A stretch of DNA of 47,147 nucleotides from Patescibacteria group bacterium (GCA_028716485.1 JAQUPS010000001.1:75935-123081), one strand, 5' to 3'; counted from the stretch's first letter, positions 2,276-17,419 are shown. The notes: generated by a model from the letters alone, not told the origin. Program-made: numbers and translations.

Positions 2276-2647
2276 CTACTTGGCTTTGACCAGATATTCC
2301 CTGACCTTCTCCACCACCTCGTTGATAGGATGCTGGGTTTTCACCAGGTAATCCTCCGCCCCCAAGCTCAAAGCTTCCTTGATCTTTTCATCGTCGCCGA
2401 GATTGGAAATTATGATAACCGGAATACTTTGAGTTTCGGCGTCGGCCTTCAGCTCTTTCAAGACGGTGAGGCCGTCTTTTTTAGGCAAAATAATGTCCAA
2501 AAGGATCAGATCCGGCTTAAAACTTTTTACCAATCCCATAACGGCGCCGCCGTCAGTGGCCAGAGCTACGGAAAAATCTTCCTTTTCGAATTTTTCCCGG
2601 AGGACTTTGATTAAAATTTGCTCGTCTTCGACAATTAATAATTTCAT
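2276..2647 (-). CDS. Stand-alone response regulator receiver (CheY-like)
   Basis: Single REC domain of 123 residues that receives a phosphoryl group from a histidine kinase; no output domain follows. KLLIVEDEQ gives the acidic pair; D51 in LILLDIILPKKDG is the phospho-acceptor; the conserved Ser (IIISN) and Lys (YLVKT) are present. I chose the ATG just before KLLIVEDE because it gives the normal REC N-terminus. An upstream in-frame ATG at 2671 would add eight residues and overlap the previous gene's stop by 14 bp. Neither start has a strong Shine-Dalgarno. It is the last gene of the surface-kinase-receiver block. Confidence 0.93.
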   Translation of the reverse strand: MKLLIVEDEQILIKVLREKFEKEDFSVALATDGGAVMGLVKSFKPDLILLDIILPKKDGLTVLKELKADAETQSIPVIIISNLGDDEKIKEALSLGAEDYLVKTQHPINEVVEKVREYLVKAK

Positions 2648-2657
2648 AATTATATTA

Positions 2658-3062
2658 TTAAAAATTTTCATCCTTAAGTCCCCCCATGGCTAATTTTTGT
2701 TTCACCTTCTTTACCACGTCGTCCAGTTTCCAGTTCGTTTTAATCAAAAAATCCTGCACGCCGTGCTTGATCGCTTCGTCGATTTGTTCGCCATAGCTTA
2801 CATTGGTCAGGATAATCACCGGCGTGGCGACATATTCTTTTTTTTCGCGCAATTTTTTCAGCATCGTCACCCCGTCCATTTTCGGCATTAAAATGTCCAA
2901 TAAAATCAAATCGGGATGCAAGGTAAGCGCTTTGTGCAGCGCAACTTCCCCGTTATTCGCCTCAATGACTTCAAAGCCGCTCTTGCTCAGCTTGTCCGAC
3001 AAGATGTCCAAGAGCATTGAATCGTCTTCGGCGATTAAAATCTTTTTCTTTTTTTCGCTCAT
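2658..3062 (-). CDS. Stand-alone response regulator receiver (CheY-like)
   Basis: Second single-domain receiver, 134 residues. ILIAEDD provides the acidic pocket, D56 in LILLDILMPKMDG the phosphorylation site, and the family Thr (IILTN) and Lys (FLIKT) are in place. It differs enough from the next gene to be a separate specificity and not a recent copy. It lies 48 bp downstream of the multi-PAS kinase, its likely phosphodonor. With no DNA-binding or enzymatic domain it would act by protein contact, for example on a motor or as a phosphate relay; its target cannot be seen here. Confidence 0.94.
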   Translation of the reverse strand: MSEKKKKILIAEDDSMLLDILSDKLSKSGFEVIEANNGEVALHKALTLHPDLILLDILMPKMDGVTMLKKLREKKEYVATPVIILTNVSYGEQIDEAIKHGVQDFLIKTNWKLDDVVKKVKQKLAMGGLKDENF

Positions 3063-3110
3063 AATCGTATATTTATTATAATTAACAAAAATGTATTTGT
3101 CGATTGCCGG

Positions 3111-6100
3111 CTATTTGGGCACAGTGAAGAAAAGAGTCGTGCCGCGTTCAGCCGTCGATTCAAACCAGATCGATCCGCCGTTAGCCTCGACTACCGCTTT
3201 GGTAATAAAGAGGCCCAAGCCGCTGCCGATGTAGCTTGAATCTTGCGCGTTGCTGCCGCGATAAAATTGGGTGAATATTTTTTGCTGTTCGGATCGGGGA
3301 ATAGCCGGTCCGAGATTATGAACGGAGATAATGTAGCTGCCGCCGAAAGCATCCACCGCAATGTCGATTTGGGACTTATCCGGAGAATAAGTGCTGGCGT
3401 TATTCAGTAAATTACCAAGCGCTTCGCTAAAAAGCAATGGGTCGATAATAGCAGGCCGGATTTTGGTATTTATCGCCACCTTGATTTTTTGGCCTTTTTT
3501 ATCGGCTGCCGCTTTGCCGGTTTCTTCAGCCTGGGCAATCAGCTTGTCGATCCTGACGGATTTCTTGCTGACCGGCAGTTTTCCGGCCTGAATGCGGGTA
3601 ACATCGAGCAGCGCGTTGACCAAACCGATCAGCCGTTCATTAGACCGATAAAGGTCGCCGATATATTCTTCCTGCTTGATGGTAAATCCCCTGTTTTGCA
3701 TCAAGATTTCCATTATCCATTTCATCGCCGACAAGGGCGTGCGCAGCTGATGAGACGCCAAGGAAAGAAAATCGGTCTTGGCGCGATCCAATTCTTTTTC
3801 AACGGTAGCATCATGGAAAACGTTGATCGCCCCGATAATTTTACCCCCGCTGATAACAGGGGAAACGGCTCTGGCCACGGGAAATCTTTTTCCATGCTTG
3901 CCCACGTAGTAATGCGGGGTGATGGCGGCAGAGACGGTTTTCTCCGTCAAGGCCGCTTCGAATTCGCTCTTTTCATGAAGAATCTCATTGCCTTTTTCAT
4001 CTTGCTTTTTCAAAATTTCATACCAATTTTTCCCCAGCGCTTCTTTTTCGGAATATCCGAGCAGCTTTTTCGCCGCTTCGTTGATCAAGATTATCTTGGC
4101 TTCGCGGTCAACGGCGATTACGCCGTCGGCAATGCTTGATAGCAGAGCCTCGTCCTTGGCCGCTGTTTCTTTCAACTTGATCTCCGCCTGTTTGATATCG
4201 GTGATATCGAACAAGGATCCCCTGACGCCAAAATGTCCGTCATTTTGCGTCGTATAGTTGTAATAAATAATGACGGGAAAGGTGCTGCCGTCTTTCTTCA
4301 GCGCCGCGTATTCGCCCGACTCTATTTTTTTCCTCTTTTTCCCCGCCAAAATTTTCTTGCCGGCTCTTTTCCGATCGGCCGGGGCGATCAGCTGCAGCAA
4401 ATAAATCCCTTGGGAAAAATCTTTTTCATTATAACCGAAAGTTTTATACCCGATGTGGTTGATAAAAGTTAGTTTGCCCTTTTTGTCCATTTCAAAAACG
4501 GTCTGCGGCAGAAGATTGGAAAAATTTTTGAATCGCTCCTGGCTCTTGCGCAAATCCTCCTCGGTCTGCTTGCGGTCGGTAATGTCTTCGTAGGTTCCCA
4601 AAACACCGAAAATTTTTCCGGACTTATCGCGCAAAGGAACCTTGTTGGTGTTTACCCACGCCCGGCTGCCATCCGATTTGATCAGCGGTTCTTCGTAATT
4701 TAATTTGGGTATGCCGCTGGCCATTACTTTTCTATCATCAGCGCGATAAGAATTGGCCATCTTCTTCCAGGCCATTTGATAATCGGTCTTGCCGATAAGC
4801 TCATCAGGTTCTTCAAAACCGGCGTCGCGGGCGGCGGCGGCATTGGCTCCCAAATAAACCAATTTATCGCTTTTCCAAAAAACCCGCTCCGGGATATTAT
4901 CAAAAATTGATTCTAACATTTGCCGGGATTGGAATAATTTTTCTTCATCAGCCCGGTGCTCCGATTGCTCGTCAATGCTTTGCAGAGCCAGACCCAAATC
5001 AGAAGCCAATTCCGCCAGCAGCGAAAGTTCCTCTTTGTCGAAAAAAGCTTTTTGGCCGGAATAAACATTGATTGTGCCGAAAATCTTTTTTCCGTAAGCA
5101 ATCAGGGCGACAGCCGATGAAGCAAATCCGAATTTTTTGGCTCTTGCCCGCCAGGGCGCATAACTCGGATCAGTGGCAATATCCGAACAAGTTATCGGAC
5201 GGCGCGAGCGGATGGCCGTTCCGGTCGGGCCTTTGCCGAATTCGCTGTTATCCCAGGTGACTTTTAATTTTTTCAAAAAAATAAGGCCTTCTCCGGCGCC
5301 GGCCATGGGATGAACCAGCTTATCGTCGGTTTTGATCATCCCCATCCAGGCCAAAGGATACCCGCGGGCGCTGACTAAACTTTTACAGGCGGCGCTCAAT
5401 AAAAGCTGCGGATTCCGCTCGCGGGCGATAATCTTATTGACGCTTCTCATCGCCAAAAGGACTTCATTCAAATGAGCGACTCGATTTTCATTCTCCTTGT
5501 GCTTGGTGATGTCGGCATGCGTGCCGATCCATATTTTTCCAAAACGCGGATGAACATAAGTTGAAACGTTGGCCGAACACCAAAAGCATGAGCCGTCTTT
5601 TCTTTTGTTGTAAACCTCGCCCTGCCAGACGCCCCGGCGATTTAAAGTTGCTTGAATTTGCCGGGAGATTTCTTCCCGGCTTTTGCCGTTGGGCGCGTTA
5701 AGCATGGAAACGTCGCGGCCGACAAGCTCGTCTTTTTTATAACCGAATAAACGATTGAATTTCGGATTGACCAGAATTATCTTGGCGGTGGCGGCATTGG
5801 CCACCACGACTCCTTCGCCCAAGTTGTTGATTATTTCCCGGATAAAAAGCAAATTTTCTTCTTCGCGTTTGCGGCCGCTCACATCGCGGAAAATGCCCAG
5901 TAAACAATTTTTCCCTCCCAAGGCGACGGGCAGAGAAGTCGTGATATCCGCGAAGAAAATACTTTTATTTTTCCTCTTGACCGGGATGCTTTTGGCCAGG
6001 AAAATTTTTCCTTTGGCTAATTTGTCGAATTGGTCGAAAACGAAAGGCAAATCTTTCCGGGGATGAATATCGGCCACACTCATATTTTTAAAATCCCGCG

Positions 6101-6266
6101 GACTCACGCCCAACATCCGGCACATAGCTTTATTGCCGTATCTGAACTTTTTTGTCCGCAGCTCGACCAATACTACGCCGTCGCTGACTTTATCGAAAAA
6201 AGTTAGAAAATTCTTTTCCGCTTCTTGCTCGTTTTCCATTATTTTTTGCCAATCCCCCTTCCCCAT
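3111..6266 (-). CDS. Cytoplasmic multi-PAS/GAF sensor histidine kinase
   Basis: 1051 residues with no transmembrane segment. Reading the sequence gives PAS domains at about 20-130, 140-255, 445-565, 570-695 and 700-825, and a GAF domain at about 265-430. The dimerisation domain has FLSLASHQLRTPLSAM with phospho-acceptor H839, followed by the ATPase domain (N box NLLNNASTYSP, G2 box GSGLGLFI). The G1 box reads VHNLGPAIP, so the usual Asp of DxGxG is Asn and the second Gly is Ala. The gene begins 15 bp after the cohesin-protein gene and is followed by two receiver genes, so all four are probably co-transcribed. The ligands of the sensors are unknown. No good Shine-Dalgarno is visible; coupling to the upstream gene is likely. 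Confidence 0.92.
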   Translation of the reverse strand: MGKGDWQKIMENEQEAEKNFLTFFDKVSDGVVLVELRTKKFRYGNKAMCRMLGVSPRDFKNMSVADIHPRKDLPFVFDQFDKLAKGKIFLAKSIPVKRKNKSIFFADITTSLPVALGGKNCLLGIFRDVSGRKREEENLLFIREIINNLGEGVVVANAATAKIILVNPKFNRLFGYKKDELVGRDVSMLNAPNGKSREEISRQIQATLNRRGVWQGEVYNKRKDGSCFWCSANVSTYVHPRFGKIWIGTHADITKHKENENRVAHLNEVLLAMRSVNKIIARERNPQLLLSAACKSLVSARGYPLAWMGMIKTDDKLVHPMAGAGEGLIFLKKLKVTWDNSEFGKGPTGTAIRSRRPITCSDIATDPSYAPWRARAKKFGFASSAVALIAYGKKIFGTINVYSGQKAFFDKEELSLLAELASDLGLALQSIDEQSEHRADEEKLFQSRQMLESIFDNIPERVFWKSDKLVYLGANAAAARDAGFEEPDELIGKTDYQMAWKKMANSYRADDRKVMASGIPKLNYEEPLIKSDGSRAWVNTNKVPLRDKSGKIFGVLGTYEDITDRKQTEEDLRKSQERFKNFSNLLPQTVFEMDKKGKLTFINHIGYKTFGYNEKDFSQGIYLLQLIAPADRKRAGKKILAGKKRKKIESGEYAALKKDGSTFPVIIYYNYTTQNDGHFGVRGSLFDITDIKQAEIKLKETAAKDEALLSSIADGVIAVDREAKIILINEAAKKLLGYSEKEALGKNWYEILKKQDEKGNEILHEKSEFEAALTEKTVSAAITPHYYVGKHGKRFPVARAVSPVISGGKIIGAINVFHDATVEKELDRAKTDFLSLASHQLRTPLSAMKWIMEILMQNRGFTIKQEEYIGDLYRSNERLIGLVNALLDVTRIQAGKLPVSKKSVRIDKLIAQAEETGKAAADKKGQKIKVAINTKIRPAIIDPLLFSEALGNLLNNASTYSPDKSQIDIAVDAFGGSYIISVHNLGPAIPRSEQQKIFTQFYRGSNAQDSSYIGSGLGLFITKAVVEANGGSIWFESTAERGTTLFFTVPK

Positions 6267-6281
6267 AAAATTATTATAACG

Positions 6282-8060
6282 CTAATCGTTGATTTCCTTA
6301 ATATTGTCGGTAATGTATTTTTTCGCTTTCTTTAAATTATTTTTTGTTTCCTCAATGAGAAATTTTTCCTCGGCAGCCTCTCGTTCATCAATTTTTCCGT
6401 CGTCATAATAACCGATAATTTTATCCAGGCTCTCGACCGTCCGATCCAGGACATTGTTAACGTCGCGCTGGGCGATAACCGCTTTCCGGCCCGCTTGATT
6501 GCGCCATAAGCGCCGGGAATACCAGCCGCAGATAAAACCGAACAGCATAATAATGATAACGGAAATGAAAAACCAAAACTGGGTAACTTCGAAAGCGCCT
6601 ATTTTAAAGAGCGGCCTTTCCCTGATGGAAAATATTTTAGAATCGATCGGCAAGCTCGAAGCGCCGCGCGAATCATGGGTGATTATCTCAATATAATACT
6701 GTCCGACATTGAAAGGCCCGCTGAATTTCGCCAGCCAATTGCCGCTATTATCAGCTTGGGCGGCAGCAGCCGCTATAATATCGCCATTTTTATTTTTCAA
6801 TAACAGCTTAATGCCGGTGTTGGCGATAGAATTGCCGCTGACATCCAGATTGCCCGACCAAGCGTAAACATTATCATCGATAAAAGTTATTTTCGGAGAA
6901 GCGAGCGGAATGATTTCAAATTGAAAACTGTTTTCTCTGATATTTCCCGCCGCATCGACCGCCTTGACCGTAACTGAATGTTTTCCGGGCGCTTGCGGCG
7001 TCAGCGTCAACGCGCCGCTGGCGACGCTAACCTCATCGGCATCGTCAACTCTGACCAAATAATGATCCATGCCGGACAAGCCGTCGCTCGTTTTAAACTG
7101 CAAAGTGCGAATCGGGCTGGTGGTGGCCGTCGCTTCCAGAGCGGTGATGTCGAAAGGCAGCGGCGGAACAGTATCGACCGCGATGCGATAATTGGCGACC
7201 GGACTCCAGCCGATATTATTTTGAAACATCGCATGCAAATACCAGATTCCGTCGCTTAGGGAAGGGAAGGCTTTGGCCTCATACAAGCCTTCCGATTTGG
7301 CCGGCGGCGTAAATTTTGTGCTTTGATTTATTATAGCGCTAACTCCGGAAATATCGCTCGGCAAATCCCACTGCGCCAAGAAATTAGATACCAGATTATA
7401 CCATTTTTTCTGGTCAGGATATAAAGGAACGCGGATTATCGGCGCGGCCGGTAAATTTTTCGCGACCGTGGGCTTTCGGACAATCGGGGCCGGATTCGGC
7501 ATTGCCGCGGCGGGAGTCGTGGTGGCGGCCGCCGGAGAATTCGGCGCGCTTGACTGCGGCAAGACTCTGAATTGCGAGTTAACAACTGAGGAAAGTATAT
7601 TGCTGCCGCTGCCGTCGGAGGCGGTAACCGCCGCGTCATTGATCGTTACCGGAGCGTCGCCCGATCCTTTGGCAATAAAAGTTATTTTCAAAACGCCGAT
7701 GGAAGACCCGACCAGACCGGTGGTTGAACCGCCGATAAAACTAACTTGTCCGACAGCGTTGGAAAAAACCGGCCCTTGGAGCCAAAAATTAAAAACCGAG
7801 CCGGCCGAAGAATAATCCAAAGATTTTACCTGTAATACGCCCGGAGGAAATTGTACAGTTGCCTGCGCGGCATTGAACCCCTGACCCTGGCTGTCAACTC
7901 TCGCTTCCACATCGAAAGTCTGGCCGATCTGGTATTGCCCGACCTGCGGCGACAAAAAAAGCGAGGCCGCGTCAGCCGCGGGAACGCGCGTTATCAAAGT
8001 TGCCGCGGCGGCCATTGCCAGAAATGCCAAAGCGTAAAGAAAAGAAAATTTTATTTTCAT
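6282..8060 (-). CDS. Membrane-anchored cohesin-domain protein
   Basis: 592 residues. A signal peptide (about 1-31) precedes a cohesin-type beta-sandwich at about 32-168 (LFLSPQVGQYQIGQTFDVEA, then FNAAQATVQFPPGVLQV and GVLKITFIAKG). A Pro/Ala/Thr linker (170-205) and two or three Ig-like segments follow (VDTVPP at 296-301, AGNIRENSFQF at about 371). One transmembrane helix at about 494-514 is followed by a basic, then helical, 78-residue cytoplasmic tail. Topology is therefore cohesin outside, tail inside. Cohesins bind dockerins, and the next gene upstream encodes a protein with C-terminal dockerin repeats. The cohesin assignment is from fold-level pattern only; another Ig-like adhesion domain is possible. 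Confidence 0.8.
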   Translation of the reverse strand: MKIKFSFLYALAFLAMAAAATLITRVPAADAASLFLSPQVGQYQIGQTFDVEARVDSQGQGFNAAQATVQFPPGVLQVKSLDYSSAGSVFNFWLQGPVFSNAVGQVSFIGGSTTGLVGSSIGVLKITFIAKGSGDAPVTINDAAVTASDGSGSNILSSVVNSQFRVLPQSSAPNSPAAATTTPAAAMPNPAPIVRKPTVAKNLPAAPIIRVPLYPDQKKWYNLVSNFLAQWDLPSDISGVSAIINQSTKFTPPAKSEGLYEAKAFPSLSDGIWYLHAMFQNNIGWSPVANYRIAVDTVPPLPFDITALEATATTSPIRTLQFKTSDGLSGMDHYLVRVDDADEVSVASGALTLTPQAPGKHSVTVKAVDAAGNIRENSFQFEIIPLASPKITFIDDNVYAWSGNLDVSGNSIANTGIKLLLKNKNGDIIAAAAAQADNSGNWLAKFSGPFNVGQYYIEIITHDSRGASSLPIDSKIFSIRERPLFKIGAFEVTQFWFFISVIIIMLFGFICGWYSRRLWRNQAGRKAVIAQRDVNNVLDRTVESLDKIIGYYDDGKIDEREAAEEKFLIEETKNNLKKAKKYITDNIKEIND

Positions 8061-8157
8061 AATAAATATCTTTTTTATAATTATATCTTAATATAAATGC
8101 GATTTCCTAATACTCGCGCCATTTTGCTGTTTTGAAAAAACCGGCTGTTATTGATTT

Positions 8158-11100
8158 TTATTTAATTTTAGCAGTTTGCAAATAAATACTCAAATCAACA
8201 ACATCAAATTTGCCGTCGCCGTTCAAGTCAGCCCGCTTATCTTGCTGCTGCCAAAGCGTCAGGAAGATACTCCAATTCTGGACATCTATTTTTATATAAT
8301 TGTTATAATCAGCCAGAAAAATACTGAAATCGGAAATATCAAATTTGCCGTCGCCGTTCAAGTCAGCCCGCTTATCTTGCTGCTGCCAAAGCGTCAGGAA
8401 GATGCTCCAATCCTGGATATCGATCTTTCCGTCATTGTTATAATCGACGCTGAAAGCGGTCAGCGGGGAAACCAGAAAATTCCTGGTTAAAGAGCGGTCT
8501 CCTTCCAGCCCGCTATCATGGTCAGTCTGCCAAACTACAACGCTATGATTGCCATAAGGCAGCGCGGCGGTGTTGATTAAAATCTGATAAGCGCCGGAAA
8601 CGCCGGCTTTAATGCTATACGTCTTGCCATTATCCAATTGCGCCGTTACTTCGTTATTGGGAGCGGCAAAACCGATAACTTTGATAAAATCTCCGCGGGT
8701 CAACACTGAACGGAGCAAATCAATGGTCGGCGGAACGACAACATTGTCAATCTCCACCGGCGTAATGCTGAAACTGAAATTATATATCTTGGCCTGGGTC
8801 TGGAAGCCGTTTTTATCTTGGACTATCAAGCTGAAAGTATATCCGCCGGAAGAAAAACCGGTAGTGCTGATGCTAAAGCCGCCATCAGCCGAAGCCGTTC
8901 CCGCGTCTTTCACTAAACTGATTCCCTGAGAGCTTATTTGCGAAAGGAAAATTTTCGCTCCGGGGAACGCCTGTCCGGAAATAGTGAAGGCCAGCGGCTT
9001 GCTAACCAATCCTCCGCCCGCGGTCGGAGGCACTGAAGGCGGATTCACCGGCGGCGGTCCGCCCGCGGCGGCAAAAATAACATTTTGCGCCGAGCTGACA
9101 TTGAGGCCGGTGCTCTGCGAGTCGGAGAGCGTCAGATTTACCGTCTCCGCGACCGCATCAGTGATAATTTTCGCGCCCACACCGTTAACTATATTAACCA
9201 ATCCCCCGCCGGTTGCCGAACCGCTGGTGATCAGGGTTACATCTTGCTGATATGAAGTGTCAATGTTGCCTGAATTATCCTGCGCTTCGACCGTCACGGT
9301 AATATTATCGCCGACCGTGCCATTGACCGGATTTAAAATGACAAACTTAGCGGCCGTGATCGGCGCCGTGCTGACGGTTACCGAATCCGACCCGTCGATT
9401 ATTCCGGCCGCGCCGTCCGGGGCGATTGAATTATCCGAAGCGCTAATCGTCCAGGTGCCGGGCGTATCGTCGAAATACCAAAAATCAGCCGCCGAGCTTC
9501 CGCTGCTCAAAGCCGTTGAAGTTATTTGATTGCCGTTGCTGGCCGCGTCGAAAAATTTGGTCGTGGTGCCGGTGGAGTTGGAATAAAGGTATATGATATT
9601 GCTGCCGGCGGTTACCGGATTGGCAAACTGATCTTGCCGCATTGCCTGATAACCGAGCCTGGTGCCAGCCGACATATCGCCGGGATTATTTAAAACGAAT
9701 CGCGCCGCCGCGTCGGGCGAAACCGCCAGAACATCCGAGGCGTCGGCAATACCGGCCGATCCGTCCGGAGTGACGGCGTTATCGGAAACCGTAATCGTCC
9801 AGTTACCGGCTTTGTCATCGTAATACCAAACATGCGCTCCGGAATTTCCCGGCGGAATATTGATCAAACTTATCGCGCTGCCGCCGCTGGCCATGTCATA
9901 AAATTTCTTGTTGACGCCGCTGGAATCTGAATAAAGATAAACAGTAGTATTCCCGGTTAATACGGTATTGCCGTATTGGTCTTCTCTGGTGATCGTGTAG
10001 CCAGCTCTCGTTCCCGCCGTAATGCCGGACGGATTGTTTAGAATAAATTTATCAACCGGACCGGTGGCAAAAATCAAATCTTGCGCTGAACTTACATTCA
10101 AGCCGGTTGACTGCGTATCAGAGAGCGAAAGGTCCACCGTCTCGGCCACGATATCGGTAATCACTTTCGTGCCAACGCCGTTGACGATATTAACCAGACC
10201 GGCGCCGCTGGCCGAACCGTCGGCTGATAAAGTCACATCGTTTTGATAAGTGGTGTCGATATTATTGCTGTTATCAACCGCCTCGATGGTAACGCTGATA
10301 TGGTCGCCGACCGTGCCGTCGACCGGATTGATAATGATAAATTTAGTCGCCATGATCGGCGCGGCGACAACATTAACCGTATCCGTGCCGTCGATTATTC
10401 CGGCCGCGCCGTCCGGGGTGGAAGAATTATCCGAACCGGTTATGGTCCAGCTGCCGGCATTTTTATCAGAGTACCAAAAATCTGCGGTGGAATTGCCATT
10501 GGTTATCGCCACCGAGTTGATCGGACTGCTGGTCGCGTCAGTCGCGTAAAAAATCGGCGTTACCGGCGAGGAGTTGGAATAAAGATAAACTAAGTCGTTG
10601 CCCGAGGCGACTGAATTGCCGAATTGATCCGCCCGGTTCACCGTGTAGCCCAATAAAGTTCCGGCTGTCATGTCGCCAGGATGGTTCAGCGTATATATAT
10701 TGGTAACCGCCGCATTCACCAATACCGAAACCGCGGCGTCGTTGATTCCGGTTATGCCGTCCGGGGCGGAAGAGTTATCGGAAACGGTGACGTCCCAGTT
10801 GCCGGCTTTGTCATCGTAATACCAAAAATCGGTTGATGAAGCGCCGCTGCCGATGTCGGCCGAAGTTATAACGCTGCCGCCGCTGGCCGCGTTATAAAAT
10901 TTCTTATTGGCTCCGGCTGAATCGGAATAAAGATAAACCGTCTCACTGCCGGAAGTTACTCCGTTGCCATATTGGTCTTGGCGGCCGACAAGATATCCAA
11001 GCCTTGTCCCGGCAGTCATGCCGCCCGGATTATTCAAGGTGAATTGGGAAGTCGGTCCGGGAGAAACCGCAATCGCGTCGCTAGCATCATCGATTCCGGC

Positions 11101-14100
11101 ATTGCCGTCGGGAGCGATCGAATTATCAGAAACGGTAATCATCCAATTTCCCGCCTTCTCGTCATAATACCAGAAATCGGCGCTGGAATTTCCGCTGCTG
11201 ATAATTAACGAGGTAATGACGCTGCCGTTAACGCTGGCATCATAAAAAGCTTTGTGGGCGCCATTGGAAGTGGAATATAAATAAACCGTGGTATTGCCTT
11301 GCGCGGTTAAGTTTCCATATTGGTCAAGGCGGGAAATGACATAGGCTGCCCTGTCGCCGGCCGAAATGTCGCCCGGATTATTGAGAGAAAATTGGGTCGG
11401 AACTCCGGCGGCAAAAATAACATTCTTGGTCGAAGAAACGATCAGACCGGTTAGTTGCGTATCGGAAAGTGAAAGATGCGCGGTTTCGGCCACCTGGTCG
11501 CTGATAGTAGTAGTGCCGATGCCATTTACAATATTAACCAGCCCGCCGCCAGTAGCCGAACCGTCAGTTGATAAAGTTACGTCCTGCTGATAGGCGGTAA
11601 CCACATTATTAGAAGCGTCTTGCGCTTCGACCGTCACGGTAATGGGAGCGTCAACCGTTCCGTTAGCTGGTTGCAAAATCACAAATTTAGTTGCCGGCAG
11701 ATTGTTAACGGAGAAAATCTGGGCATTGGAAGTACCGCCGCCGGGAGTTGGATTGGTAACGGTGATTTGGACAGTCGAGGTGACGACGGTCAAATCGGAA
11801 GCCGGAATAATCGCCGTAACTTGATTAGTAGAAACAAAAGTAGTGGTACGGTTACTGCTGTTGAATTTGACTTGAGAGGTGGAGACAAAATTGGAGCCGT
11901 TCACTGTCAAAGTAAACTGAGCGTCGCCGACAGTTTTCGATGTGGGAGAAATATTAGTCGTGGCCGGAACCGGGTTGTTGACCGTGAATGTCTGGGCGTT
12001 CGATGTTCCGCCGCCCGGGGTCGGATTGGTCACGGCGATCTGGACAGTGTTGGTCGCTGTAAGCATGTCGGTAGCCGGAATGATCGCCGTCAATTGGTTG
12101 GCGGAAACGTAGGTTGTCGCGCGGTTACTGCCGTTAAATTTAACTTGTGAAGTCAAGACAAAATTCGAACCGTTCACCGTCAAAATAAACTGAGCATCGC
12201 CGACTGTTTTGAATGTCGGGGAAATATCGGTTGTCGCCGGAACCGGATTATTGACCGTGAATGTCTGGGCATTAGAAGTTCCGCCGCCGGGCGTTGGATT
12301 GAAAACAGTAATTTGAGCCGTATTGGTAGCGGTCAGTAAATCAGTAGCGGGAATAACCGCGGTGAGCGAGGTAGAAGAAACAAATGCTGTCGTTCGATTT
12401 GAACCGTTGAATTTTATTTGCGAAGCAGAGACAAAGTTCGAACCGTTTACCGTGAGCGTAAACTGAGCATCGCCGACGGTTTTGAAAGTCGGGCTGATGC
12501 TGGTCGTGGCCGGAATCGGATTATTAATGGTAAAAACTTCAGCATTGGAAGTTCCGCCGCCCGGCGCGGGATTGAAAACAGTAATCTGGGTCATGGCGCT
12601 CGGCGCGGTTAAATCCGAAGCTGGAATGATTACGGTCAATTGATTATCTGAAACAAAGGCAGTGGCGCGATCGGAACCGTTAAATCTGACCACGGAACTA
12701 TTTACAAAATTCGAACCGTTGACCGTCATCGTGAATTGGGCGTCGCCGACAATTTTAGCCGCCGGAAAAATATTTGTCATTGCCGGAACCGGATTGTTGA
12801 CGGTGAATATCTGAGCGTTGGAAGTTCCGCCGCCCGGAGCGGGATTAGTCACTGTAATTTGAACTGTGTTAGTGGCGGTCAACAAATCAGCGGCAGGAAT
12901 TGTGGCAGTAAGTTGAGTTGATGAGGCAAAAGTTGTAGTTCGATTTGAGCCGTTGAAACGAACAACGGAAGTGTTCACAAAGTTGGTGCCTTTAACGGTC
13001 ATGGTGAATTGGGTATTGCCGACAATCTTGCCGGAAGGTGAAATTGAAACGGTGGTCGGGACAGGATTATTGACCGTGAATGTTTGAGAATTGGAAGTAC
13101 CTCCGCCCGGGGTCGGATTGGTCACGGAGACCTGGATAGTGTTGGTCGCCGTGAGCATGTCGGTTGCGGGAATAATGGCGGTGAGTTGCGAGGCGGAAAC
13201 AAATGTAGTAGTGCGATTGGAACCGTTGAATTTGACTTGCGAGGTGGAAACAAAATTCGAACCATTTACTGTCAAAGTAAACTGGGCATCACCGACTGTT
13301 TTGAATGTCGGGGAAATATCGGTTGTCGCCGGAACTGGATTGTTGACAGTGAACGTCTGGGCATTTGAAGTGCCGCCGCCGGGAGTCGGATTGAAGACAG
13401 TAAGCTGCGCCGTGCCGGTCGCCTTAAGCATATCGGCAGCGGGAATCGTGACAGTCAATTGAGTCGATGAAGAAAAAGCGGTAGTGAGATTTGAACCGTT
13501 GAAACGGACGACAGAAGTATTTACAAAATTAGTTCCTTTAATGGTCATGGTAAATTGAGCATCGCCGACGATTTTAGTATTGGGAGAAATTGAAACGGTG
13601 GTCGGGACAGGATTATTGACCGTGAATGTTTGGGCGTTGGAGGTGCCGCCGCCCGGAGTAGGATTGAATATGGTGAGCTGAACAGTGTTGGTGGCCGTGA
13701 GCATGTCGGTTGCGGGAATAATGGCGGTGAGTTGAGTGGAATTGACGAACGTCGTTGTCCGATTCGAACCGTTGAATTTGACTTGCGAGGCGGAAACAAA
13801 ATTGGAGCCGTTGACTGTCAGAGTGAACTGAGCGTCACCGACTGTTTTGCTGGAAGGAGAAATGGAAACAATAGTCGGTATGGGGTTGTCGGTCGCCTGG
13901 ACAAATTCGGTCGTGCCGCTGGCCAGATTGCCGGCCTTGTCATACGCCCAAATATTAAAAACGTAAGTGGTACTGGCGTTGAGACCAGTAACGGTGGTAG
14001 TGGAATGGTGGGATAAATTGGCAAATTGCAAAACAGTATCGCCCGGATTGGTTGAAGAACCAAAGGCCGTATCGGTCTGATGAACTCCGGAAACGCCGGC

Positions 14101-15279
14101 TTTATAGTAAATTTTATATTGATAAAAATTAGCATCGGTGGAAGTGGCGCCGAATTTGATGGTTATGGCAGAGGCATTCTTTTTACTTAAAGTCAGATTT
14201 CCCGGAGTAGTCGGCTTGGTCGTATCGATTGTTAAATTTGGCGTCACAGCATTAAAAGCGCTCCAATGAGAACAGCCGTCCGCGGTGCAGGCTAAGGCTT
14301 GCCATTTATAACTGCCGTCCGGAACCGCGGTAAATTTCATGTATTTCGGCTCGGACGAGACCGACATATCCCGCACTTCCACGGCATTAAGCGCCAAAAA
14401 ATTAAAAAAGCCACTGTGAAGATCGATAGTTTCGGTAGCGCCTGTCGCGGCGAAGGTGCCGGCCACAAATTGGCCGGGCAAAGGCGCGGCCGCATTCATC
14501 GTGACTGAATTGGTGTCAGTAAATGTCTGATTGCCGAAGCTGGCGTTGCTGGCGGTGCTGGACCAAAACTGAACTTTATAAGTATGGCCGCCGGTCAGGC
14601 CGTGAAGCACTATCGGGCGATTGCCGCTGCCGGCGCTGGTGAAGGCGGCAAAATGCGCGATAATCCCGTTATAACTGGCGATAGTGGAGCCATCGGTTCC
14701 GATGGAATCCGCCGAGGTGGTAAAGGTGATGTTGCCATCGCCACTGCCGGCCAAACTGGCGGTACCGGTAAAAGAAACTCCGTTGACGGTCTGGGAAGTA
14801 TTGGACCAGTCATAGGCGTACAAGGCGGTGCCGGTCGTAGTAGCGTTAGTGCCGGCGGTAATGGTTAACGGGCCTTTCCAAGTCATCGCGCCGCCTCCCC
14901 CGCCGGAGACGGAAGGACCCCAAACGCGCGAAGGGCAGCTGGCATAAGCAGTGCCCGAAGTACAAACGGTAGCCGGAGTGGAAGTTGAAGAAATAAAAGT
15001 ACCGCTGGTGGTGGCCAACTGATAGTAAATTACCACTTGCTTATGATCAATACTGTCGGTCGAAGTAGCGTAAAGATTAATTTGATTCTGTTTGATAAAA
15101 CTGCCGTTGGCCACCGGCGTGGAAGTGCTTGAGCCATACTGATTCATGGTTGCCGGATTCGGCGTAGACGGCCGCGCGGCTATGACAATGATAAAGCTGA
15201 CGGCCAAAATCAGCCCGCTCGCCGCCAGGATCGATAAAGTTATTTTGGAATATTTATTTTTAGTTTTCTTTTTGCGCAT
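8158..15279 (-). CDS. Giant surface protein: IPT/TIG repeats, Ig-like modules and C-terminal dockerin
   Basis: About 2370 residues. A basic N-terminus and hydrophobic segment (ITLSILAASGLILAVSFIIV) act as signal or anchor. Then come Ig-like and fibronectin-III segments, eight 91-residue IPT/TIG repeats (nt 11704-13888), then two kinds of larger module in the order A-B-B-B-A-B-B-A (A starts like ATKFVILQPANGTV, B like FSLNNPGDISAGDRAAYV). A Pro-rich linker, another Ig-like stretch and dockerin loops (DYNNDGKIDIQDW, DLNGDGKFDISDF) end the protein. I chose the ATG at 15279, which gives a clean signal peptide; ATG 15321 or TTG 15333 would add 14 or 18 residues. No start has a Shine-Dalgarno. Likely an adhesin or surface filament. 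Confidence 0.88.
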   Translation of the reverse strand: MRKKKTKNKYSKITLSILAASGLILAVSFIIVIAARPSTPNPATMNQYGSSTSTPVANGSFIKQNQINLYATSTDSIDHKQVVIYYQLATTSGTFISSTSTPATVCTSGTAYASCPSRVWGPSVSGGGGGAMTWKGPLTITAGTNATTTGTALYAYDWSNTSQTVNGVSFTGTASLAGSGDGNITFTTSADSIGTDGSTIASYNGIIAHFAAFTSAGSGNRPIVLHGLTGGHTYKVQFWSSTASNASFGNQTFTDTNSVTMNAAAPLPGQFVAGTFAATGATETIDLHSGFFNFLALNAVEVRDMSVSSEPKYMKFTAVPDGSYKWQALACTADGCSHWSAFNAVTPNLTIDTTKPTTPGNLTLSKKNASAITIKFGATSTDANFYQYKIYYKAGVSGVHQTDTAFGSSTNPGDTVLQFANLSHHSTTTVTGLNASTTYVFNIWAYDKAGNLASGTTEFVQATDNPIPTIVSISPSSKTVGDAQFTLTVNGSNFVSASQVKFNGSNRTTTFVNSTQLTAIIPATDMLTATNTVQLTIFNPTPGGGTSNAQTFTVNNPVPTTVSISPNTKIVGDAQFTMTIKGTNFVNTSVVRFNGSNLTTAFSSSTQLTVTIPAADMLKATGTAQLTVFNPTPGGGTSNAQTFTVNNPVPATTDISPTFKTVGDAQFTLTVNGSNFVSTSQVKFNGSNRTTTFVSASQLTAIIPATDMLTATNTIQVSVTNPTPGGGTSNSQTFTVNNPVPTTVSISPSGKIVGNTQFTMTVKGTNFVNTSVVRFNGSNRTTTFASSTQLTATIPAADLLTATNTVQITVTNPAPGGGTSNAQIFTVNNPVPAMTNIFPAAKIVGDAQFTMTVNGSNFVNSSVVRFNGSDRATAFVSDNQLTVIIPASDLTAPSAMTQITVFNPAPGGGTSNAEVFTINNPIPATTSISPTFKTVGDAQFTLTVNGSNFVSASQIKFNGSNRTTAFVSSTSLTAVIPATDLLTATNTAQITVFNPTPGGGTSNAQTFTVNNPVPATTDISPTFKTVGDAQFILTVNGSNFVLTSQVKFNGSNRATTYVSANQLTAIIPATDMLTATNTVQIAVTNPTPGGGTSNAQTFTVNNPVPATTNISPTSKTVGDAQFTLTVNGSNFVSTSQVKFNSSNRTTTFVSTNQVTAIIPASDLTVVTSTVQITVTNPTPGGGTSNAQIFSVNNLPATKFVILQPANGTVDAPITVTVEAQDASNNVVTAYQQDVTLSTDGSATGGGLVNIVNGIGTTTISDQVAETAHLSLSDTQLTGLIVSSTKNVIFAAGVPTQFSLNNPGDISAGDRAAYVISRLDQYGNLTAQGNTTVYLYSTSNGAHKAFYDASVNGSVITSLIISSGNSSADFWYYDEKAGNWMITVSDNSIAPDGNAGIDDASDAIAVSPGPTSQFTLNNPGGMTAGTRLGYLVGRQDQYGNGVTSGSETVYLYSDSAGANKKFYNAASGGSVITSADIGSGASSTDFWYYDDKAGNWDVTVSDNSSAPDGITGINDAAVSVLVNAAVTNIYTLNHPGDMTAGTLLGYTVNRADQFGNSVASGNDLVYLYSNSSPVTPIFYATDATSSPINSVAITNGNSTADFWYSDKNAGSWTITGSDNSSTPDGAAGIIDGTDTVNVVAAPIMATKFIIINPVDGTVGDHISVTIEAVDNSNNIDTTYQNDVTLSADGSASGAGLVNIVNGVGTKVITDIVAETVDLSLSDTQSTGLNVSSAQDLIFATGPVDKFILNNPSGITAGTRAGYTITREDQYGNTVLTGNTTVYLYSDSSGVNKKFYDMASGGSAISLINIPPGNSGAHVWYYDDKAGNWTITVSDNAVTPDGSAGIADASDVLAVSPDAAARFVLNNPGDMSAGTRLGYQAMRQDQFANPVTAGSNIIYLYSNSTGTTTKFFDAASNGNQITSTALSSGSSAADFWYFDDTPGTWTISASDNSIAPDGAAGIIDGSDSVTVSTAPITAAKFVILNPVNGTVGDNITVTVEAQDNSGNIDTSYQQDVTLITSGSATGGGLVNIVNGVGAKIITDAVAETVNLTLSDSQSTGLNVSSAQNVIFAAAGGPPPVNPPSVPPTAGGGLVSKPLAFTISGQAFPGAKIFLSQISSQGISLVKDAGTASADGGFSISTTGFSSGGYTFSLIVQDKNGFQTQAKIYNFSFSITPVEIDNVVVPPTIDLLRSVLTRGDFIKVIGFAAPNNEVTAQLDNGKTYSIKAGVSGAYQILINTAALPYGNHSVVVWQTDHDSGLEGDRSLTRNFLVSPLTAFSVDYNNDGKIDIQDWSIFLTLWQQQDKRADLNGDGKFDISDFSIFLADYNNYIKIDVQNWSIFLTLWQQQDKRADLNGDGKFDVVDLSIYLQTAKIK
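8203..8403. repeat. In-frame 135-bp duplication in the dockerin coding region
   Basis: Positions 8203-8268 and 8338-8403 are identical over 66 bp, offset by 135 bp (45 codons), with near-identity continuing afterwards. The duplication adds a second dockerin unit. In the extra copy the first calcium loop is degenerate (DYNNYIKID in place of DYNNDGKID), so three of the four loops look competent. Confidence 0.9.
11704..13888. repeat. Eight tandem 273-bp repeats encoding IPT/TIG domains
   Basis: Each unit encodes about 91 residues beginning NNPVPTTVSISP or similar, with FTVNGSNFV-type cores and ending NPTPGGGTSNAQTFTV. Units alternate between two subtypes, 'SxSQVKFNGSNRTT' and 'NTSVVRFNGSN', suggesting duplication of pairs followed by mixing. 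This is protein-level repetition and not a CRISPR. Confidence 0.95.
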
Positions 15280-15636
15280 TTGCTGAATTTTATTCGCCAA
15301 TAAAAAACTGCGAAAGATCATTTCCGCAGTCAAAAATTATTTGCTTTGCCAAAGTTACCGAACAATAAATCAAGCGCCGCGAAAAAATCCGCGAACGCAA
15401 AAGATGGCGTGGGAAATAAATTTTTCTTTTCAAAAAAATTTGTCTTCCCGATCAGTTTGATATTATTCTTTTGACCCCCCATTTTATTTGAAGATTGAGC
15501 AATTTAAAAATTATTTTCCGCCATTAAAGCGGGTAAATATGCTTTCTTCTCGTCGGTTTAATTATAGCACTTATTAAAACCGGCGTTAAGGGAAAAATTG
15601 ACAAGCTGGCGCCGTTCCTGTTAAGCTGAAAAGCTC
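15280..15636. other. Spacer between the giant surface gene and the purC region
   Basis: The spacer carries short CG-rich inverted segments (for example CGCG around 15379-15394) and a TTGACA at 15597-15602 with only a poor -10. I see no gene here. The leaders of both divergent genes must start in this stretch or in the palindrome next to it. Confidence 0.4.
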
Positions 15637-15854: not shown

Positions 15855-16835
15855 ATGAATGAACAAGCGATCAGACAAGCGATTACGGACTGTATCGTCC
15901 TGAATAATTGCCTTTCCAACACTGATTTTCTCGGTTTCCCTAACGGCAAAAAAGGCAAAGTGCGGGACATTTACGATTTAGGCGACCAGCTTCTGCTGAT
16001 CACTACCGACCGACAAAGCGCCTTTGACCGCCTTCTCGCCAACGTGCCTTTCAAGGGAGCGGTGCTAAATCAAACCAGCGCTTATTGGTTCGGAGCCACG
16101 GAAGATATCGTTCCTAATCACGTCATTTCCATATCCGATCCCAACGCGATATTGGCCAAAAAATGCCGAGTCATTCCCATCGAATTCGTCATTCGCGGTT
16201 ATCTGACCGGCTCGACCGACACTTCGGCCTGGACGCTTTATGCCAAAGGCGGCCGCGAGATGTGCGGCAATATTCTGCCGGACGGAATGGTGAAAAACCA
16301 AAAATTCGCCAAACCGATCATTACGCCGACCACCAAATCGGAAGAGCATGACGAAAGCATTTCTCCCGCGGAAATCGTCGCGAGAAAAATCGTCAGCCGG
16401 GAAACCTGGGACGGGCTGGAAAAAATCGCTTTCAAACTGTTTGACCGCGGCGTGGAAATCGCCGCCATGCGCGGCTTAATCCTGGTGGACACCAAATATG
16501 AATTCGGAATTGACCGCGACGGCCAGATAACTTTAATCGATGAGATTCACACGCCCGATTCCTCCCGCTATTGGCTCGCCGATTCTTATGCCGAACGTCT
16601 GGCGGCCGGAAGAGAGCCGGAAAACATCGACAAAGAATTCCTGCGGCTCTGGTTCAAACAGAACTGCGACCCGTATCACGACCAAGAGCTGCCGGAAGCG
16701 CCGGCAGATTTAGTGGAAGAACTATCTTTCCGCTATATCAAGCTCTACGAAATGATCACCGGCCGGAATTTCAACGCCGCCTCCGATTTCTCGGTTCGGG
16801 AACGGCTGAAAAAAAATTTGTCAGGCATTCTTTAA
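15855..16835 (+). CDS. purC: SAICAR synthetase (phosphoribosylaminoimidazole-succinocarboxamide synthase)
   Basis: Joins CAIR and aspartate with ATP to give SAICAR, step seven of IMP synthesis. The 326 residues match the longer PurC type. GKVRDIYDL (34-42) and TTDRQSAFDR (about 50-59) belong to the ATP site; EFVIRGYLTGS, the stretch ending in ITPTTKSEEHDE and LILVDTKYEFG are family signatures. AGAAAGGGG lies a few bases before the ATG at 15855. purE follows after 29 bp and purB after the purE terminator. It is the first gene of the purine group. Confidence 0.96.
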   Translation: MNEQAIRQAITDCIVLNNCLSNTDFLGFPNGKKGKVRDIYDLGDQLLLITTDRQSAFDRLLANVPFKGAVLNQTSAYWFGATEDIVPNHVISISDPNAILAKKCRVIPIEFVIRGYLTGSTDTSAWTLYAKGGREMCGNILPDGMVKNQKFAKPIITPTTKSEEHDESISPAEIVARKIVSRETWDGLEKIAFKLFDRGVEIAAMRGLILVDTKYEFGIDRDGQITLIDEIHTPDSSRYWLADSYAERLAAGREPENIDKEFLRLWFKQNCDPYHDQELPEAPADLVEELSFRYIKLYEMITGRNFNAASDFSVRERLKKNLSGIL

Positions 16836-16864
16836 CCCGCTAACTTGCAATGAAAGGAGAAAAG

Positions 16865-17419
16865 ATGAGACGAGGATTAATAATAATCGGCTCGGAATCG
16901 GACTTGAAGCAATGCCGCGGCGGCTTGCAATGGATTTTAAAAAATCCCGAGCAGATTATCGTGGAGAAAATCCATGTCGCCAGCCAGCATCGTCATACTT
17001 TAAGAGTACAGAGAATTCTTACTGATATATGGTCGCGCCGCGAGCGGCCGGATTTCATCATCTTGGGCGCCGGCTGGGCTAATCATCTGACCGGTTGCGG
17101 CGAAGCGTTCCTGCGCTATCAGCTTAGGGATGATAAAATAACGGCAATCGGCGTCGCGTTTGAGGATTTGAAAAATCCCCTTCACACCCAAGCGGCCATT
17201 CTTAGCATCACCCAAGTGCCCGGCACGAAAGTTATTTTTGAAGACGCGGCCGGACAATTTGTCGGTTCCGCAGGCTTTACCCGAGCCTGCCAATATGCGG
17301 CAACGGGTCAATTTCCAGAAATCACCCTTAAGGATCCACCCGAAACGAAAGATTACAGCGTAGAACAGGCGATCGCGAAAGGAACCGAACTGTTGGCAGC
17401 CGAATCAGAGCATCATTAG
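16865..17419 (+). CDS. purE: Divergent PurE-type AIR carboxylase / N5-CAIR mutase
   Basis: 184 residues, expected to make CAIR, the substrate of PurC next door. GSESD (9-13) matches the phosphate-binding GSxSD of PurE; SQHRH (40-44) replaces the usual SAHR but keeps the catalytic His; LGAGWANHLTG replaces AGGAAHLPG. The start at 16865 is chosen because AAAGGAG stands 4 bp before it; an ATG at 16850 lies upstream of that site. No purK is seen, so whether the substrate is AIR or N5-CAIR is open. The changed active-site loop and the length mark it as a distant family member; context supports the role more strongly than the sequence does. Confidence 0.8.
   Translation: MRRGLIIIGSESDLKQCRGGLQWILKNPEQIIVEKIHVASQHRHTLRVQRILTDIWSRRERPDFIILGAGWANHLTGCGEAFLRYQLRDDKITAIGVAFEDLKNPLHTQAAILSITQVPGTKVIFEDAAGQFVGSAGFTRACQYAATGQFPEITLKDPPETKDYSVEQAIAKGTELLAAESEHH

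Follow-up and report, generated by a model that had tools for sequence, protein, structure and literature searches.

Introduction

Cohesin and dockerin modules that do not belong to cellulosomes were reportedly reviewed by Peer et al. in 2009. They are known in bacteria as well as in archaea, and two reports place them in anaerobic methanotrophic (ANME) archaea (PMC9012536) and in Omnitrophota (PMC10066038); the latter includes a giant open reading frame (ORF) with nine dockerin domains, for which a role as an adhesin has been suggested. Here we describe a locus of Patescibacteria group bacterium (GCA_028716485.1) on a stretch of 47,147 nucleotides (JAQUPS010000001.1:75935-123081, this whole stretch being called the window below), in which a giant protein with a C-terminal dockerin is encoded next to a cohesin protein with a membrane helix. 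Together they probably constitute a two-part surface-anchoring device, the dockerin-tagged giant being held by the membrane cohesin, for which we infer binding, surface location, adhesin role and co-transcription.

Compared with the described non-cellulosomal modules (Archaeoglobus fulgidus, PDB 2xdh; ANME archaea; Omnitrophota), the locus has the cohesin fold, the two-loop dockerin and the non-cellulosomal setting in common. It differs in the single-membrane-helix anchor of the cohesin, which carries a helical tail, in the two conserved Ig domains of the dockerin tail, and in the recurrence of dockerin-cohesin operons across Patescibacteria. The giant passes the cut-offs of both NF041540 ("GC-type dockerin domain-anchored protein") and NF058597, and the NCBI naming of the former already implies that the dockerin is an anchor. 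However, both names are silent on the cohesin that is bound, whereas here the gene for the likely partner is adjacent. The clostridial cellulosome also unites cohesin-dockerin modules with a surface-bound anchor, but here there is roughly one cohesin per dockerin; no protein of the genome gave more than a single cohesin match, and no scaffoldin was found, nor were dockerin-bearing hydrolases or carbohydrate-binding modules. The giant adhesins SiiE and Aureispira GhpA are likewise surface proteins with many Ig-like domains in a row. They are anchored or secreted by other means, and neither is known to be attached via cohesin and dockerin. The signalling genes next to the pair form a trio of the kind found in two-component systems with PAS kinases and stand-alone receivers, which occurs elsewhere without cohesin-dockerin genes and does not belong to the device. 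In the portions of the open literature on dockerin in Patescibacteria, the candidate phyla radiation (CPR) or Parcubacteria that were covered, with subscription journals outside this scope, no description of the present system was found. As far as seen, the wide operon family is new as a variant of the known non-cellulosomal cohesin-dockerin modules, and the window contains one divergent member, whose neighbour is not conserved.

Results

The locus comprises five genes, which, like their domains and the promoter-like sites given below, are all on the minus strand: the giant (8158-15279), the cohesin protein (6282-8060), a histidine kinase (3111-6266) and the receivers RR1 (2658-3062) and RR2 (2276-2671). 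The gaps are 97 bp between giant and cohesin, 15 bp between cohesin and kinase, and 48 bp between kinase and RR1, while RR1 and RR2 overlap by 14 bp. A first-pass annotation had already reported five genes on one strand with small gaps, and its coordinates, including the gap of 15 bp, were confirmed.

The giant has 2,373 amino acids when read from the ATG at 15279; a TTG upstream, at 15333, lengthens the ORF. It has a single N-terminal hydrophobic segment (residues 17-35), and membrane-segment prediction gave no such segment at the C-terminus. Pfam matches above the curated cut-offs are an fn3-like domain (fn3, 13924-14208), eight TIG/IPT repeats (TIG, approximate limits 11740-13878) and Dockerin_1 (34.9 bits; cut-off 22.9). 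The repeats are represented in NCBIfam by eight stretches of CoaZ_rpt_PGGG (NF058597, the choice-of-anchor Z repeat; above cut-off, E 1.1e-216), and NF041540 (dockerin_GC) is matched with 46.4 bits (cut-off 29), a match that covers only model positions 12-64 of 67 and leaves the first 11 unmatched. Two Ig-like domains (8446-9003) precede a dockerin (8314-8445) with two intact calcium loops, DYNNDGKIDIQD and DLNGDGKFDISD. This is followed by a tandem copy of 132 bp (8179-8310; 88% identical DNA), in which the first loop, DYNNYIKIDVQN, is broken and the second, DLNGDGKFDVVD, is intact. The N-terminal segment and the Dockerin_1 match thus bear out the initial description of a giant secreted protein that ends in dockerin loops. 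The Ig-Ig-dockerin tail matches the other two dockerin proteins of the genome (E about 1e-18 to 1e-20) and is 28-32% identical to the C-termini of the dockerin proteins of the genome and of the family. The G+C content of the giant gene is slightly higher than that of the window (0.505 versus 0.46). A second giant encoded in the genome (G000:C12), for which no dockerin motif was observed, shares 65% identity with residues of about 60-483 (in the numbering from the TTG) of the window giant.

The cohesin protein has 592 amino acids, with a signal segment (residues 5-23), the cohesin domain (residues 32-168; 7557-7967), a membrane helix (residues 495-513; 6522-6578) and a helical tail (residues 514-592), which is presumably cytoplasmic. 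It aligns over its full length with many relatives (E 1e-60 to 1e-80), and 35 of 55 aligned homologues match the Pfam family Cohesin. AlphaFold predicts a confident beta domain at residues 32-168, Ig-like domains, and a long helix that includes the membrane segment and is followed by another helix. The long-cohesin and short-cohesin family profiles match each other at E 3e-32, and for the model of a related short cohesin the top 50 PDB matches are cohesins only (A. fulgidus 2xdh, template modelling score 0.81). The fold search of the PDB with the whole chain of the window cohesin protein (the domain alone not being fold-searched) returned multi-Ig proteins as its top 50, and is therefore uninformative on the cohesin domain; SiiE and Aureispira GhpA are among the PDB matches to the Ig part of the anchor. 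A sequence profile search of the PDB with the window cohesin gave no cohesin match, and a single-protein scan of the genome contigs with it gave no matches. The objection that there might be no cohesin fold does not apply, because of the full-length homologues, the AlphaFold beta domain, the short-cohesin model and the profile link. The cohesin fold and the fixing in the membrane, as first proposed, are thus upheld by the Pfam matches of homologues, the confident domain and the helix. Judged by its sequence, the window cohesin is a divergent further paralogue, a lineage-specific offshoot of the cohesin-dockerin family of Patescibacteria.

The genome (1.15 Mb, 28 contigs) contains two further dockerin-cohesin sets, so that the window pair is its third. 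Locus B, on contig C4, consists of genes for a dockerin protein, a short cohesin and a long cohesin, and locus A is split by contig ends into dockerin-HSP20 on C25 and cohesin on C28. Both loci recur across the order, locus B as a tight operon of dockerin, short cohesin and long cohesin, and locus A in the order dockerin-HSP20-cohesin in all 14 complete cases, although two of these have additional intervening sequence. The complete cases with HSP20 between dockerin and cohesin are L067, L070, L072, L078, L081, L084, L086, L088, L093, L096, L104, L107, L184 and L186. In total, three dockerin proteins and four cohesin proteins are encoded in the genome, a ratio near 1:1. With that many candidates, the giant and the window cohesin, both of which are divergent, might have other partners, e.g. 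the giant might bind to the locus-A or locus-B cohesins, and the window cohesin might receive foreign dockerins. We consider this rather unlikely, because the adjacency and the order of dockerin and cohesin genes are conserved across the family, and the giant and the window cohesin are neighbours that are jointly missing from the syntenic site of a congener (see below).

GTDB genomes were scanned with an alignment of the locus-B cohesins, a 44-row alignment being too diverse. The scan relied on cohesin motifs alone and yielded 79 named loci, nearly all from Patescibacteria, including Falkow-, Uhr-, Wolfe-, Kaiser-, Taylor-, Niyogi-, Portnoybacteria and others; the loci are mutually related and do not represent independent counts. 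A dockerin gene lies upstream in 62 of them, always on the same strand, and in 39 within 200 bp. For 12 of the 17 loci without an upstream dockerin the contig starts with the cohesin block. Because retrieval was by cohesin motifs only, the linkage to dockerin is independent evidence. Dockerin and cohesin were found together in 21 of 60 related genomes (24 and 25 positive, respectively; p 2e-9), and a sample of 287 genomes of the phylum had dockerin in 107, cohesin in 82 and both in 55 (Fisher p 8e-11), counts that include any cohesin or dockerin beyond this family. In all 71 long cohesins and in 52 of 57 complete short cohesins, the C-terminal half contains a membrane helix. Of 57 dockerin proteins, 55 carry a hydrophobic segment at the N-terminus, and a C-terminal membrane helix was found in none. 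Their common tail consists of two Ig-like domains and a dockerin, usually ending in ...DFSIMxYxWTG, while the N-terminal parts vary.

Since the two modules are the same as those in cellulosomes, the system could be a remnant of, or a feeder into, a cellulosome-like enzyme complex, and some other, distant Patescibacteria (G177, G178 and G203) have 8-11 dockerin matches, many of them clustered, which possibly represent scaffold-like systems; one of these genomes, G177, also has a frame of 945 amino acids that matches both cohesin and dockerin. However, no catalytic Pfam domain was found in any of 71 dockerin proteins, 66 of which match Dockerin_1, and with one cohesin match per protein and the near 1:1 ratio in the genome this interpretation is extremely improbable and was rejected. 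The linkage of the genes, the confinement of C-terminal helices to the cohesins and the missing catalytic domains instead argue for a non-cellulosomal, approximately 1:1 surface-anchoring device. The proposal of the first-pass annotation, that a non-cellulosomal pair with no visible cellulase or other catalytic domain could attach a very large adhesin to the cell, is supported.

Upstream of locus B, many genomes have genes for a MacB-like ABC ATPase, an FtsX-type permease, a large secreted protein and a membrane protein, the last of which immediately precedes the dockerin gene in 40 of 56 loci. A role of these conserved genes in type IV pili was considered and dropped, as they are a MacB/FtsX-type ABC pair plus secreted and membrane proteins without a Pfam family. 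The gene that precedes the dockerin gene resembled WxL-interacting proteins with only E 0.17, and this likeness was not accepted. Genes with cohesin-family matches also occur in consecutive runs of three to at least five; a single dockerin gene precedes the run in L255, L264 and L268, and none was visible in L238 and L263. Locus L213, recorded as Methylomirabilis, is a typical dockerin-cohesin operon of Patescibacteria and probably a misbinned contig.

The third gene of the window locus encodes a soluble histidine kinase with five PAS domains, HisKA and HATPase. The five PAS domains and the two lone receivers (91 and 84 bits) had been recognized at first pass, but a GAF domain (residues 286-429) had been missed. 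No hydrophobic segment above threshold was found in the kinase, which is therefore not a membrane sensor. The congener G001 has the syntenic order purB, purC/E, kinase, RR1, rnc, pilT, with 65-98% identity of the flanking genes and 60% of the kinase C-terminus to the window; its kinase gene is split over two contigs with overlapping end sequences. Both the giant and the cohesin are missing from this site. There, purC/E and the kinase are divergent neighbours with 342 bp between them, and this gap aligns with the gap upstream of the window giant, on the purC side and in a stretch of 57 bp (BLASTN E 1e-7 and 7e-5). The shared 57-bp stretch contains TTAACG-17-TATAAT with an extended -10, and the promoter-like site upstream of the giant (15561-15589) has the same hexamers and spacing as that upstream of the congener kinase. 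From the comparison of these two species, the simplest account is that the pair separates the kinase gene from its old promoter, having been either inserted here or lost in the congener. The borders of the segment with giant and cohesin have no repeat longer than 10 bp in common. Because of this position between the promoter-like region and the kinase, it is possible that the genes for adhesin, anchor and kinase share a transcript in the window species; the receivers may have their own transcription, since a promoter-like site that agrees in 11 of 12 positions (3075-3103) precedes RR1.

The gap of 15 bp, the single strand and the possible common promoter could also mean that the five genes are one unit for signalling and adhesion, in which the helical tail behind the membrane helix of the cohesin signals to the kinase that the giant is bound, or the kinase governs display. 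Among the 79 loci, two others have such neighbours, namely a receiver 20 bp after the cohesin (L241:6389-6766) and a kinase-receiver pair beside the cohesin (L212:10120-11787). However, kinase and receivers occur without the pair at the same locus of the congener, the more distantly related genome G069 has the trio kinase-RR2-RR1 with neither a cohesin nor a dockerin, and of 138 genes that directly flank cohesin blocks elsewhere on the outside, 2 are two-component genes, the same rate as in the background (9 of 657). In addition, the kinase has no membrane segment, the helical tail is a feature of the family that is also found where no kinase is nearby, and RR1 has the promoter-like site of its own. 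A dedicated signalling-adhesion unit is thus decidedly unlikely. Because the kinase stands without the pair in both genomes and two-component genes are no commoner beside cohesins than elsewhere, the link to signalling is a coincidence of location or, at the most, an innovation of this lineage through co-transcription. The original suggestion that attachment is tied to the kinase therefore did not survive the examination of gene order.

The same holds for the suggested tie to type IV pili. A pilT-like gene does lie nearby, at the window edge (2-343; T2SSE match with E 1.8e-44; complete in L008), but the congener has pilT at the same place and no pair there, so that its nearness is old synteny. 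Two further differences between the species were seen in this region. The congener has the purC and purE domains in a single frame of 441 amino acids (L177:13427-14752), which corresponds to two frames in the window (15855-17419), and it has a serpin gene (L177:9721-11010; E 2e-126) between the purine and RNase Y genes, for which no counterpart was seen there in the window. Contig C5 of the congener (L147, L149) contains open frames of 9,052 and 4,143 amino acids with repeats related to residues 330-485 of the giant; the smaller frame is on the same strand as, and after, the locus-A cohesin of the congener.

Discussion

In the mechanism that we propose, the N-terminal signal of the giant TIG/Ig-repeat protein would direct its export, and the Ig-Ig-dockerin tail at its C-terminus would bind, in a calcium-dependent manner, to the cohesin domain of the product of the next gene. 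The cohesin protein would be held by its one membrane helix, with the helical tail in the cytoplasm, and the dockerin would serve as the attachment tag for a long adhesin-like fibre. The kinase-receiver operon would be a separate unit by chromosomal place and not a part of the device. Pairing, surface exposure and adhesion are proposed by analogy, from what is known of cohesin-dockerin biology.

Several observations limit the strength of this proposal. The cohesin domain of the window scores 19.5 bits with Pfam, under the cut-off of 24.1, and in the tree the protein is a long branch (end branch 2.57) outside clades A and B and of unsure placement. The dockerin of the giant does not have the C-terminal WTG that most relatives carry. 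The dockerin and the short cohesin of a relative were modelled as a pair by joining the adjacent genes through stop-codon read-through, which is a computational device and no claim of recoding, and the result was a good cohesin and a poor dockerin (predicted local distance difference test (pLDDT) about 40-77; predicted template modelling score (pTM) 0.63). Lastly, the same genome and the congener hold giants with related repeats and no visible dockerin, which indicates that anchoring by dockerin is not the sole way.

A wider proposal is that Patescibacteria share a dedicated display system based on dockerin tags, in which cohesin receptors with a single helix and a helical cytoplasmic tail hold modular adhesins, be they short Cys-rich proteins, Ig/fn3 fibres or giants, all encoded in a cluster that recurs and also includes genes for a MacB-like ABC transporter and an Ig-like membrane protein. 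In the lineage of the window, one pair would have entered a kinase operon by capturing its promoter. We regard this as tentative and, taken as a whole, doubtful.

Cultivated Patescibacteria grow on the surfaces of host cells, and how members of the phylum fix their surface proteins and hold on to other cells is a largely open question. The joint presence of cohesin and dockerin in 55 of 287 genomes, about a fifth of the phylum sample, together with the recurrent operons, provides a concrete candidate answer, which is testable without culturing the organism because each pair can be produced and assayed in Escherichia coli. The pair-less site of the congener illustrates how such a pair can end up between a promoter and a signalling operon. 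If the proposal is true, it would broaden cohesin-dockerin biology from scaffolds for enzymes to the anchoring of adhesins; display via dockerin tags would then be a functional counterpart of surface attachment by sortase or type IX systems, and could serve the contact with host cells.

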